Shown in pieces: positions 4,630 to 7,755 of a stretch of DNA of 22,357 nucleotides. Made by a program: the position numbers and the translations under genes. The DNA is from a virus, in IMG/VR virus record IMGVR_UViG_3300043823_000202, positions 1 through 22,357 of that record; one strand, given 5' to 3'. The stretch's first letter is position 1, and the number at the start of each line of letters is the position of its first letter. The notes under the pieces are model-generated. The model saw nothing but the letters and a program-made list of their open reading frames with translations, was not told where the DNA came from and ran no database searches.

Positions 4630-5064
4630 TTAATATTCTCTTAACGCTTGTTTTGCAAATTGAAGTGAAATCGGTCTTACTTGTTCACCAGCTCTATGCC
4701 TAGCAAGTATTTTCTTAGCCCAATCTTTGTAATCGTGGCCTTCTGGCTTTTTTAAGTTCTTTAGCTTGTCAGCCAACTCCAAGGGTACTGGAACACCCTT
4801 AAACTCGATTTTTTGGTATTCACTAGCTTTTGGTGCTGATAAACATAAATTCTTGAATTGGATGAGATTTGGGGGCTTTTCGGGTAAGTGCTCAAGTGCC
4901 CATGCAATCATTTCCAGTTTGTCTCCAAAACCAGCTAATTCGTTCATCCAAAGGGTTTTAACATCGTTGACATTCATTCCAAACCACATATTTACCCATT
5001 GATTGCCGTAAATAATGCCAAACCTATTAAACAGTCGATCTATAGCAGTTGCTGATATGCTCAT
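4630..5064 (-). CDS. replication protein P-like (putative helicase loader)
   Basis: A 144-residue protein similar in layout to the short P-like proteins that follow O-like genes in many phages. The N-terminal RLFNRFGIIYGNQWVNMW (about 10-27) is followed by a helical segment ending in WALEHLPEKPPNLIQFKNLC (about 56-75), the most recognisable part of the family, and a basic C-terminus (YKDWAKKILARHRAGEQV). In lambda, P delivers host DnaB helicase to the O-bound origin; a similar role is inferred from family and position. The start overlaps the O-like stop as ATGA. No helicase, primase or polymerase is in the window, consistent with use of the host replisome. Confidence 0.75.
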   Translation of the reverse strand: MSISATAIDRLFNRFGIIYGNQWVNMWFGMNVNDVKTLWMNELAGFGDKLEMIAWALEHLPEKPPNLIQFKNLCLSAPKASEYQKIEFKGVPVPLELADKLKNLKKPEGHDYKDWAKKILARHRAGEQVRPISLQFAKQALREY

Positions 5065-5816
5065 TCTTTAATCTCCAAAAAGTTCATATCAATTGTTGTT
5101 TTGCCATTTTTGGTAACTCCAGAGAGTTCATCAAAAAATGCTTTTTTTGCTTCCAAGTCTTGTTGATAAAACGACTTTGGCTGCTCTTTTTGCTTTTCAA
5201 TAACCCATTCAGCTTTAAACCCTCTCCATCCTCTAGCCACAATTTCTGTTAATGCCTGCTCAAGTGTCCATTCGATCTTGTCAGCTTCTTTTTGGATTGA
5301 CTTTATGACTGTTTCAGTTACAGCTGCTCTGGATAATTTTCTCTGGGTTAAAAATGATTCCCAGGTTTCTTGTGTTACGCCTTCAGGTGCTTGTATTTTT
5401 AATTGGTTATTGGTTGATGGTTTATGGTTAGTGGTTAATGGTTTATGGTTAGGTGGAGCTTCGTTAACGACTTGTGCACGCTTCGTGCTATTTTCTTTAC
5501 GCTTTGTTTCACGATTGATAGCGATTCGTTTATTTGTATCGGCATTTTTGTGATACTGTAAAAGTTCCTCCAATATTCTGTTTTGGACATATTTGCCCTC
5601 TTTATCCAATTGAAAAAACCTGTTTAATACAAATTTAACTGCATCAATTTCGGCTTCTGTAGATGCCCAAGTCCAATCTAATGCTTGTTCTAAAGTTGGA
5701 AATTCTTCCCTGTCATAGCAGGAATCAATTAAAAGCGTATATGCGCCATGCTGCAACATGGACAATCGCCCTGTTTTTTTGGCATAGTCGCCAATATTTC
5801 TTTTGTAATAGTGCAT
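5061..5816 (-). CDS. O-like replication initiator, DUF1376 domain, carrying heptamer repeats
   Basis: A 251-residue protein. Residues about 1-90 form a DUF1376 domain (MHYYKRNIGDYAKKTGRLSM, then HGAYTLLIDSCYDREEFPT and a region ending IL-EELLQYHKNAD). This domain is found in phage replication initiators in the lambda O position. A low-complexity linker (about 91-140) follows and contains NHKPLTTNHKPSTNN, encoded by a seven-unit heptamer array. The C-terminal domain (about 150-215) has TWESFLTQRK and ALTEIVARGWRGFKAEWV, common in these proteins. It probably binds the repeats in its own gene and recruits the P-like protein. The first ATG has no strong ribosome binding site and sits behind a structured leader. 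Confidence 0.85.
   Translation of the reverse strand: MHYYKRNIGDYAKKTGRLSMLQHGAYTLLIDSCYDREEFPTLEQALDWTWASTEAEIDAVKFVLNRFFQLDKEGKYVQNRILEELLQYHKNADTNKRIAINRETKRKENSTKRAQVVNEAPPNHKPLTTNHKPSTNNQLKIQAPEGVTQETWESFLTQRKLSRAAVTETVIKSIQKEADKIEWTLEQALTEIVARGWRGFKAEWVIEKQKEQPKSFYQQDLEAKKAFFDELSGVTKNGKTTIDMNFLEIKE
5404..5452. repeat. seven tandem heptamers (TGGTTNN), candidate replication origin iterons
   Basis: Seven directly adjacent 7-base units read TGGTTAT, TGGTTGA, TGGTTTA, TGGTTAG, TGGTTAA, TGGTTTA, TGGTTAG on the plus strand. The last six form two 21-base repeats differing at one base. The array lies in the linker-coding part of the O-like gene, as the lambda origin iterons lie within O. Because seven is not a multiple of three, the unit passes through all three codon phases. 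The heptapeptide repeat NHKPLTT/NHKPSTN is therefore a by-product of three units. The invariant TGGTT core suggests protein-binding sites. Confidence 0.75.
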
Positions 5817-5833
5817 TTGACCGACCCAAAACT

Positions 5834-5866
5834 AGACCCTTGAGGAAACCTCGGCAGGAGGGGTCT
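5834..5866 (-). promoter_or_regulatory. nested stem-loop in the leader of the O-like gene
   Basis: In the leftward transcript, AGACCC at 5866-5861 can pair with GGGTCT at 5839-5834, enclosing a smaller hairpin GAGG-TTT-CCTC (5852-5842). The stem lies in the roughly 100-base leader between the cro-like stop and the O-like start. No U-run follows, so it is not a simple terminator. It could be an antitermination (nut- or put-like) or translation-control element, or merely chance structure. Pairing is read by eye. Confidence 0.45.
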
Positions 5867-5916
5867 GGACTCTTTTCAATCTGCTCATGACTTCAGATCT
5901 AGCCGTGTTTCAAACT

Positions 5917-5944
5917 ATTATACCTTTTTTGTGTACTTTTTCAA
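5917..5944 (-). promoter_or_regulatory. sigma-70-type promoter at the 3' end of the cro-like gene, reading toward the O-like gene
   Basis: On the minus strand, TTGAAA (5944-5939) and a perfect TATAAT (5922-5917) are separated by 16 bases. The -10 overlaps the cro-like stop codon. Transcription would start near 5910 and yield a leader of about 95 bases ahead of the O-like gene. This would give the replication genes expression independent of the upstream divergent promoter. It is the best -10/-35 match I see in the control region. Confidence 0.6.
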
Positions 5945-6103
5945 AAATAATTTAGGATATTTAATTTTTATGGATGCGGGTATTCCCCTAGTCCTCCAAT
6001 TATTTACCCTTTGTTTAGCAATACCCAATTTTTTAGCCAGTGCAGTTGTGCCACCGTATAAATGAATGAGTTCTTTGTCAAGTTCAATTTGTTTTGTATC
6101 CAT
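5918..6103 (-). CDS. Cro/YdaS-like helix-turn-helix regulator
   Basis: A 61-residue protein typical of small Cro- or YdaS-type phage regulators. The recognition element is at about 17-37: GGTTALAKKLGIAKQRVNNW, with the Q-R-V-x-x-W turn characteristic of this group, followed by a basic tail (KYPKLFLKKYTKK). It is the first gene of the leftward operon and lies beside a 21/20-base inverted repeat (6121-6180), its probable operator. No Shine-Dalgarno motif precedes the ATG and the likely -10 box is only 6 bases away, so its mRNA may be leaderless. No CI-like partner gene is present, so this may be the phage's main switch protein. Confidence 0.82.
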   Translation of the reverse strand: MDTKQIELDKELIHLYGGTTALAKKLGIAKQRVNNWRTRGIPASIKIKYPKLFLKKYTKKV

Positions 6104-6109
6104 ATCTGA

Positions 6110-6139
6110 ATATTAGCATAATTTTGGTAAAGTAAACAA
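6110..6139 (-). promoter_or_regulatory. leftward early promoter for the cro-like gene
   Basis: On the minus strand, TTGTTT (6139-6134) and TAATAT (6115-6110) are 18 bases apart. The -35 lies inside the left arm of the large inverted repeat, so an operator-bound protein would cover it. Only 6 bases separate the -10 from the cro-like ATG, which predicts a start of transcription at or next to the start codon. Confidence 0.5.
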
Positions 6140-6180
6140 ATATTGTATTATTTTTGCACAATTTGTTTATTTCCCAAAAT
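6121..6180. promoter_or_regulatory. large imperfect inverted repeat, candidate divergent operator
   Basis: The left arm at 6121-6141 (ATTTTGGTAAAGTAAACAAA then T) and the right arm at 6161-6180 (ATTTGTTTATTTCCCAAAAT) are near-perfect reverse complements. They differ by two substitutions or so and one extra base. They are separated by a 19-base AT-rich spacer. Each arm carries TTGTTT reading outward, so each contains the -35 region of one divergent promoter. This symmetry suggests a regulator that controls both early operons at once; the adjacent Cro-like protein is the obvious candidate. Confidence 0.65.
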
Positions 6181-6193
6181 TACTGTGTATACT
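6163..6193 (+). promoter_or_regulatory. rightward early promoter for the recombination operon
   Basis: TATACT at 6188-6193 is a good -10 box. Upstream, TTGTTT (6163-6168, 19-base spacing) is a weak -35 within the right arm of the inverted repeat; GTTTAT (17-base spacing) is an alternative. Transcription would start near 6200 and give a leader of about 40 bases before the 6242 start. No other candidate precedes the plus-strand operon. Confidence 0.45.
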
Positions 6194-6203
6194 CAATCCC
6201 AGG

Positions 6204-6219
6204 CAAACAATCATGTTTG
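6204..6219. promoter_or_regulatory. small palindrome just downstream of the rightward promoter
   Basis: CAAACA (6204-6209) and TGTTTG (6214-6219) are perfect inverted repeats with a 4-base spacer. The AAACAA half matches the core of the left arm of the large inverted repeat, so it may be a second binding site for the same regulator, positioned over the start of transcription. It is short and could be chance. Confidence 0.35.
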
Positions 6220-6241
6220 TCAAAACTAAGGAAACTTAAAG

Positions 6242-6418
6242 ATGGAAACTAAATCACCAAAAGATCATCTCGATCACTATAAAGAAGGATACCAAGATGG
6301 TATTCAATCGGTCTTAACTCTTGTCAACGACTATTGTGGCAGAGACATTAAATGCCAAGCTGACTTAATTAGATTCATCAGAGGTCTACAACTTGATGCT
6401 AAATACCCAAGGAGCTAA
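6242..6418 (+). CDS. small hypothetical protein, first gene of the rightward operon
   Basis: A 58-residue protein found by direct translation, starting METKSPKDHLDHYKEGYQ and ending DAKYPRS. The segment HYKEGYQDGIQSVLTLVN looks like an amphipathic helix, and a second helix is ADLIRFIRGLQL. AAGGAAA lies about 10 bases before the ATG. It is the first open frame after the rightward promoter, so it would be the earliest protein made from that side. Its last codons carry AAGGAG for the next gene. No family recognised. Confidence 0.65.
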   Translation: METKSPKDHLDHYKEGYQDGIQSVLTLVNDYCGRDIKCQADLIRFIRGLQLDAKYPRS

Positions 6419-6420
6419 TC

Positions 6421-6507
6421 ATGGATAAAGAAGATCAAATCGTTGTTTATTTTTGTATTTTGGTTGTTATTTTCTTTTTGGGTTATTTTACGGGGGCACA
6501 AGTATGA
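6421..6507 (+). CDS. 28-residue membrane peptide
   Basis: A very small frame with a strong ribosome binding site (AAGGAG, 7 bases before ATG) that overlaps the ERF start as ATGA. After an acidic start (MDKEDQ), nearly all of the rest is one hydrophobic helix (IVVYFCILVVIFFLGYF), so it should insert in the inner membrane. Good translation signals and perfect packing between two genes argue that it is real. Similar mini membrane proteins of early phage operons can disturb host functions, but no function is known for this one. Confidence 0.6.
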   Translation: MDKEDQIVVYFCILVVIFFLGYFTGAQV

Positions 6508-7289: not shown

Positions 7290-7576
7290 AACACAAACAT
7301 TATGAAGTAATCATTGCGTATGCACTTGGAAAAGAAATTCAATGTTACTCAGAGCAAACAAAAGAATGGATTGACGCATATCGACCATCATTTTTAGATC
7401 ATGTTCAATATCGAGTTAAACCACCAAAACCTGATGTTGTGAAATATGTTGTTTGCAATTATCCGTTAGATGGTAAATGGTTTGAATCAAGATTACCACA
7501 TTTACATGATTGCATAAAAATAACAATTGATGGTGAAACAAACAAACTTAAAGCAGCAGAGGTATATAAATTATGA
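7286..7576 (+). CDS. phage hypothetical protein, YEVIIAYALGKEIQ type
   Basis: A 96-residue protein resembling a widespread phage family with an N-terminal H-x-E-V-I-x-A-x-A-x-G-x-x-I-Q motif, an aromatic middle (EWIDAYRPSF) and a Y-R-V-K-P block (about 42-46). Here it reads KHYEVIIAYALGKEIQCYS and DHVQYRVKPPKPD. The second half (VVKYVVCNYPLDGKWFESR) may be an added beta domain. Function unknown. This gene and the next are visibly richer in A/T than ERF or the exonuclease on either side, suggesting a later insertion. Confidence 0.72.
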   Translation: MKHKHYEVIIAYALGKEIQCYSEQTKEWIDAYRPSFLDHVQYRVKPPKPDVVKYVVCNYPLDGKWFESRLPHLHDCIKITIDGETNKLKAAEVYKL

Positions 7577-7755
7577 CAACGCAGAAATCTAAATCTTTTC
7601 ATGCCCCAGATGGTTATAAAAGATTAACAATTAATTTAAGAGAAGATTTGCACAAAGAAATTAAACTGTTAGCAATTAAAGAAGATCAAACAGTAACTGA
7701 CATTATTCACAAATTGTTAGAAAAAGAAATTGTTTATTCAAAGGTAAAAAAATGA
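7573..7755 (+). CDS. ribbon-helix-helix DNA-binding protein
   Basis: A 60-residue protein with the ribbon-helix-helix layout of Arc, ParG and antitoxin-type regulators. A basic start (MTTQKSKSF) is followed by a beta strand KRLTINL (about 17-23), helix A REDLHKEIKLLAIKED and helix B TVTDIIHKLLEKEI. Such proteins bind operators as dimers through the strand. No toxin gene is adjacent, so it is more likely a stand-alone repressor than half of a toxin-antitoxin pair. It overlaps both neighbours as ATGA. Its start (ATGACAAC) resembles that of the next gene. Confidence 0.78.
   Translation: MTTQKSKSFHAPDGYKRLTINLREDLHKEIKLLAIKEDQTVTDIIHKLLEKEIVYSKVKK

Follow-up and report, generated by a model that had tools for sequence, protein, structure and literature searches.

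What a run of short, nearly identical repeats is doing inside a protein-coding gene is the question raised by this locus. The window, which is the whole 22,357-base virus record analyzed here and may be a fragment, contains on its plus strand seven contiguous TGGTTNN units starting at 5404, 5411, 5418, 5425, 5432, 5439, and 5446 and filling 49 bases (5404..5452). The array lies about 370 nt inside a gene on the minus strand (5061..5816) whose 251-aa product has a DUF1376 domain; the array is thus antisense on the plus strand, and the coding strand reads AACCANN. The seven units are exactly as described in the first-pass annotation, and a four-unit TGGTTNN pattern with three mismatches permitted finds no match in 100 dinucleotide shuffles of the window. 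No second array of this kind occurs within the record. The annotation had proposed a lambda-O-like origin of replication, and comparison of related sequences indicates that the array region is very probably where replication of these viruses starts. The reading favored here, to which a probability of roughly two in three is assigned, is that of a bipartite origin within the gene, in which duplex sites spaced at 11 bp would adjoin a directional heptamer array serving as the element for unwinding and strand capture.

The product of the gene is proposed to be a replication initiator on the basis of family, fold, and structure-prediction searches. Residues 2-85 match Pfam DUF1376 (PF07120) with E = 1.4e-21 and 77.1 bits vs a gathering score of 30.1; this Pfam family of unknown function receives only passing mentions in the open-access papers searched. 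PHROGs matches are to a primosomal protein (3e-37) and to O-like replication initiation proteins (7e-19), the O-like match covering the linker and the C-terminal half. In the AlphaFold2 model (pLDDT 86), residues 8-109 form a well-predicted N-terminal domain that is helical, wHTH-like, and includes a two-strand hairpin, residues 110-148 a low-confidence linker that is encoded by the array, and residues 149-232 a helical C-terminal domain. The best fold match in the PDB is B. subtilis DnaD (9a5c_B, a GlpD-DnaD model), and it is weak (E = 2.4e-3, probability 0.92, whole-model TM ∼0.2). The DnaD N-terminal domain (2v79) is a further match, the TubR winged helix is among the weak ones, and the Pfam search of the 251-aa protein returns no match to DnaD. 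Across relatives the array is located between the N- and C-terminal domains and starts a median of 29 aa beyond the DUF1376 domain; in the window it encodes the peptide PPNHKPLTTNHKPSTNNQ, ∼37 residues past the end of that domain.

The surroundings of the gene are those of a phage replication-recombination region, with ERF, SSB, PD-(D/E)XK nuclease, and NinB neighbors in the window (Pfam, PHROGs). Immediately downstream, overlapping the DUF1376 stop by 4 bases, is a minus-strand gene (4630..5064) for a 144-aa protein of the P-like helicase loader family. The match of this protein to the P-like helicase loader phrog_109 is weak (E = 0.021); its homologue from another locus (L346) gives a P-like match with E = 2.5e-5, and phmmer links the 144-aa protein to 77 of 322 downstream proteins, all within one BLAST cluster of 152. 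In ∼210 of the 322 DUF1376 loci the gene directly downstream is P-like, IstB/DnaC-like, or DnaB, where the class is named from representatives of downstream clusters of sizes 152, 27, and 31. The order of initiator followed by loader or helicase is conserved.

The first-pass annotation observed that the repeat passes through all three codon phases, and this is confirmed for the window array. The unit itself requires revision: the TGGTT core stands, but the two remaining positions are not free. In array-bearing DUF1376 genes, units in phases 1 and 2 mostly precede NT (TAACCA) and so favor T at the second position, whereas phase-0 units have mainly TA or AG and never T before the next AACCA, because CAN-TAA would create a stop codon. 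Tandem Repeats Finder reports a period of 7 and also a period of 21. The longer period had been read as two turns of the helix, but the least common multiple of 7 and 3, combined with avoidance of TAA in phase 0, is sufficient to yield it, and a helical design of the super-period is therefore rejected as a coding artefact.

Scanning IMG/VR for four TGGTTNN units gave a sample, not a census, of 120 listed matches. Of these listed matches, 111 have the array inside the linker of a DUF1376 gene; a DUF1376-like N-terminal domain is present in the ORF in 106 of them, the other five being interrupted by contig ends, and in the 106 ORFs the arrays are antisense and mostly at residue 115-160. Most of the remaining listed matches come from GC-rich contigs, where runs of AACCAAG type occupy unrelated frames. 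Heptamer runs of AACCAAG/GGTTCTT type outside DUF1376 genes (loci L118, L361, and L379 and other GC-rich contigs) fall in several frames, sometimes more than once per contig, and are probably unrelated interspersed repeats.

Collecting DUF1376 relatives through peptides other than that of the array gave 63 distinct ORFs, 62 of them with three exact units or more. Cultured phage records scanned whole contain the three-unit pattern in 10 of 14 cases, each time in the DUF1376 gene only, and at least three reversed units are found in 0 of 312 genes. ACCA arrays occur in most DUF1376 genes, down to ∼25% identity and including genes with unrelated C-terminal domains. Since array-bearing genes fall into at least five sizeable C-terminal domain groups without BLAST links between them, presence of the array does not depend on the type of C-terminal domain. 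The array is missing in ∼20% of distant DUF1376 genes and in YdaU of the E. coli Rac prophage, and it is thus not essential for every DUF1376 protein. Vibrio phage 1.232.O (locus L489, 1138-1959) encodes an O-like C-terminal half as in DUF1376 proteins together with a different N-terminal initiator domain (phrog_12556); the ACCA array is absent from its gene, which contains ∼two copies of a 21-bp repeat, TTAACCTGATTCCTGATCCCC. In this single case seen, a swapped N-terminal domain is accompanied by absence of the array.

Whether the DNA or the encoded peptide is conserved was addressed by codon-free scans with NHKPxTxNHKP and NQEPxTxNQEP, in which every synonymous codon was permitted; both are samples, not censuses. 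The first lists at least 119 distinct DUF1376 loci, and in these the AACCA core is kept at all Asn, Pro, and Thr codons (595/595): Asn is AAC 238 times and AAT 0 times, Pro is CCA in 238/238, and Thr is ACC in 119/119, with Lys being AAA in 238/238. Among the matches listed by the second scan, all five cores are intact in 90 of 98 DUF1376 loci. Independently of the array, 132 genes were gathered in which Pro is encoded by CCA in 260 of 261 instances inside the array vs 484 of 1666 elsewhere in the genes. At least five units are observed in 89% of close relatives vs 1.6% after synonymous-codon shuffling within the gene; for 79 distant bacterial (mostly prophage) genes, at least four units are observed in 63% vs 2.8% after synonymous shuffling. 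The array is selected at the level of DNA and not of the peptide, in agreement with the first-pass annotation. A peptide retained after loss of the heptamer would have pointed the other way, and the opposite is seen, every core base being retained in 119/119 listed loci.

Related linkers also include variants that keep the DNA array while the peptide changes. Over all genes the ACCA spacing is 7 in 2032 instances, 6 in 25, and 8 in 11. Variants with 6-bp units encode PTPTPT or NQNQNH, CACCANN 7-mers encode HQTPDT, and the Acinetobacter phages fEg-Aba01 and IME-Ap7 have 8-bp units at the array position; ACCA is retained in 6- or 8-bp spacing variants having unrelated peptides (PTPTPT, NQNQNH, LTNKPI). 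Five copies of TACCCAA occupy the array position in Vibrio phage 1.052.A. Across such distant members, core, spacing, and peptide change although an array stays in place. A scan with the reversed pattern (TTGGTNN) was discarded as a control because it overlaps with TGGTTNT arrays. A decaying array (ACT for ACC, CAA for CCA) with a largely preserved peptide is seen at loci L190, L194, L195, and L196 (and L151), and these DUF1376 genes may have shifted to another origin element.

Just 5' of the heptamer array on the coding strand is a second block, missed in the earlier reading and newly noted here. It consists of three 11-bp-phased units on the minus strand (5459..5491), which read CTTCGTTAACG, ACTTGTGCACG, and CTTCGTGCTAT on the plus strand and contain a palindrome, TCGTTAACGA (5461-5470), and an inverted repeat, GCACGCTTCGTGC (5476-5488). 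A Cro/CI operator role for the block was weighed for the window only, where each of the two inverted repeats occurs just once over the entire length. The periodicity is a property of the family: across 312 non-redundant genes, the 77 nt that immediately precede the array on its 5' side have a self-match of 0.444 at lag 11, 0.398 at lag 22, and 0.379 at lag 33, compared with ∼0.26 at the remaining lags and for the DUF1376 domain and C-terminal part. Because eleven is not a multiple of three, this block is also a feature of the DNA.

Alignment on the array start reveals subfamily-specific 11-mers in fixed register to the array, namely ATGCGAACGCA, CGTTCAACGGA, CGTGAACGAAG, units containing AACCCA, GAAATCAGATC, and GCCCCCCTAAT. 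The 11-bp type tracks the N-terminal domain, being the same in 163 of 170 nearest neighbors with at least 70% identity and in 22 of 31 with 50-60% identity, and the heptamer core is constant while the 11-bp block and the C-terminal domain vary. The 11-bp type covaries with N-terminal residues, the top domain columns being W48, W50, L46, and D47; this association is suggestive but confounded by phylogeny, and columns 92-95 overlap with the DNA block. The 11-bp sites are proposed as duplex binding sites of the initiator.

In the mechanism envisaged for the bipartite origin, the DUF1376 initiator would be made from a gene that holds its own origin. Its predicted wHTH-like N-terminal domain would bind the double-stranded sites at 5459-5491, one on each turn of the helix, and this binding would strain and open the adjoining heptamer array. 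The most likely agents for capturing a single strand of the array would be a conserved surface on the initiator itself or a host factor, and the C-terminal domain, acting with the product of the next gene (a P-like/DnaC-like loader or phage DnaB), would load the helicase there. A division of labor between 11-bp sites and heptamers would be consistent with their different properties. The ACCA core, repeated at 6-8 bp and nearly always at 7, is constant family-wide and always in the same orientation, and the array is AT-richer than the gene in GC-rich phages (GC 0.37 vs 0.54; 0.49 vs 0.64) but hardly so in low-GC phages (GC 0.34 vs 0.37). Being oriented, constant, unphased, tolerant of 6-8 bp spacing, and AT-richer in GC-rich genes, the array may be expected to act as an unwinding element that is captured single-stranded. 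The detrended GC-skew minimum in eight complete phages lies 42 bp (AbP2), 677 bp (1.184.A), and 1.95 kb (BA3) from the array, and far from it in the other five, so that these genomes agree on no one position; in the window the GC skew takes a local turn near 5500-6500, where transcription diverges too.

More broadly, DUF1376 proteins might constitute a large class of phage initiators, in which a near-universal ACCA array would act as a strand-specific code for unwinding and helicase loading and fast-evolving 11-bp recognition sites would give each phage its own specificity, a viral counterpart of the DnaA-trio. This generalization is tentative, a possibility to which we give somewhat less than even odds. 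How an origin passes from recognition to opening and loading is still not well understood, and these functions would be separated if a short repeat stays constant while the phased block next to it varies. The conserved anatomy provides a testable role for DUF1376 and, for hundreds of phages and prophages, a base-level prediction of the origin; origins in viral metagenomes can be sought simply by searching for the array pattern.

Alternatively, the heptamers might be classical duplex iterons for the DUF1376 N-terminal domain, with the 11-bp block as an accessory or host-factor site. In lambda, the origin repeats sit where the O gene encodes the linker of the initiator, and the present locus is similar in having direct repeats in that region, a predicted loader gene next (P in lambda), and an O-like PHROG match. 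The array also accompanies the DUF1376 N-terminal domain and not any one C-terminal domain, and a constant core is paired with a conserved Pfam domain. However, a spacing of 7 bp (6 or 8 in variants) places neighboring units on different faces of the helix and is below the usual winged-helix footprint, which is longer than 7 bp. Moreover, the separate, helically phased block varies with the N-terminal subfamily whereas the array core does not; phased, subfamily-specific, and variable beside constant heptamers, the 11-bp block is the better fit for the role of duplex iterons. In lambda, O dimers bind iterons that are 19-bp inverted repeats, and a 40-bp AT-rich region is also present (PMC5043065). 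Iterons of that kind (∼19-bp inverted repeats) are not found here; 7-bp direct repeats adjoin an 11-bp-phased block, widely different phages have the repeat core in common, and DUF1376 forms the N-terminal domain. The lambda-O-like interpretation of the first-pass annotation is thus retained as to an initiator-type gene with a DNA-level array inside it and a conserved gene order, but not as to the heptamers being ordinary duplex iterons, which is considered unlikely.

It is improbable that the repeats act in mRNA or as an operator for autoregulation. The array is indeed transcribed and strictly oriented to the gene (0/312 reversed), but coding can account for this orientation, as TGGTT in the sense direction would give a Trp/Leu/Val-rich peptide. 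In addition, an Rfam search gives no match, the array lies ∼370 nt inside the gene, the gene that most often follows encodes a helicase or loader, and the helically phased 11-bp neighbor suggests duplex DNA. Centromeres can be short direct-repeat arrays, and a partition role might also be suggested by the TubR winged helix among the weak fold matches; with no ParA/TubZ neighbor found in the annotated stretches and a helicase or loader as the usual neighbor, this explanation is highly improbable.

Neutral slippage, by which short tandem repeats do grow, could be invoked from the AACCAAG runs in unrelated GC-rich contigs outside DUF1376 genes (L118, L361, L379), but the core and its position stay the same even between proteins only ∼25% identical, with NN and flanking sequences that differ, and slippage by 7 bp would break the frame. 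The codon-free search, the spacing variants, and the synonymous shuffles all contradict it, leaving it hardly credible. Selection for the peptide heptad NHKPLTT, common as it is in the family, is rejected by the codon-free peptide search, by the invariance of synonymous positions in the core, and by the 6- and 8-bp variants that keep ACCA with unrelated peptides, and is the least credible explanation of all.

The bipartite arrangement has parallels in other systems. At RK2 oriV, TrfA binds iterons and also four strand-specific repeated 13-mers of the DUE (PMC4081077). The candidate duplex sites here also adjoin short direct repeats; the sites are phased and in fixed register to the repeats, which are oriented. 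In RK2 the initiator binds a single strand of the second set, as it may do here; the differences are that both sets are here inside the initiator gene, the repeat length is 7, and the core is near-universal in the family. The oriC BUS, with DnaA boxes and DnaA-trios and the DnaD recognition element, likewise pairs duplex sites with a short oriented repeat that comes after them, although no DnaA boxes are invoked here. DnaD binds one strand of oriC at pairs of 5'-TnnT-3' (PMC10201434). DnaD is the best PDB match of the DUF1376 protein, and each TGGTT unit contains TGGT, which fits TnnT; this is a lead only. DnaD uses a C-terminal tail, and the homology here is a weak fold match.

The E. coli Rac prophage resembles the window in having ydaU (DUF1376) followed by ydaV, a putative ATP-binding protein, but differs in that ydaU is without an ACCA heptamer array. 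The ydaU linker of the K-12 prophage (L200, ∼7450-7640) contains TGTTCAAAC/TGTTTGAAC and TGTTCAAACA / TGTTGAAG / TGTTTGAACA repeats in ∼11-bp steps. Rac also carries oriJ, an origin that is active but repressed (PMC3945230), of which the ydaU linker repeats are a candidate core; no link between oriJ and ydaU was found in the open-access papers searched.

Elsewhere in the window, at 5918-6103 and 6104-6240, a Cro/YdaS-like gene lies just upstream of the DUF1376 gene, and the divergent intergenic region contains operator-like inverted repeats, TAAACAAAT / ATTTGTTTA. A doubled octamer, TTTATTCCTTTATTCC, at 1017-1032 and 1804-1819 marks the 3' ends of two nearby genes, both of whose proteins end in HGIKE and have EKQEPV motifs in common, and which are likely paralogues.
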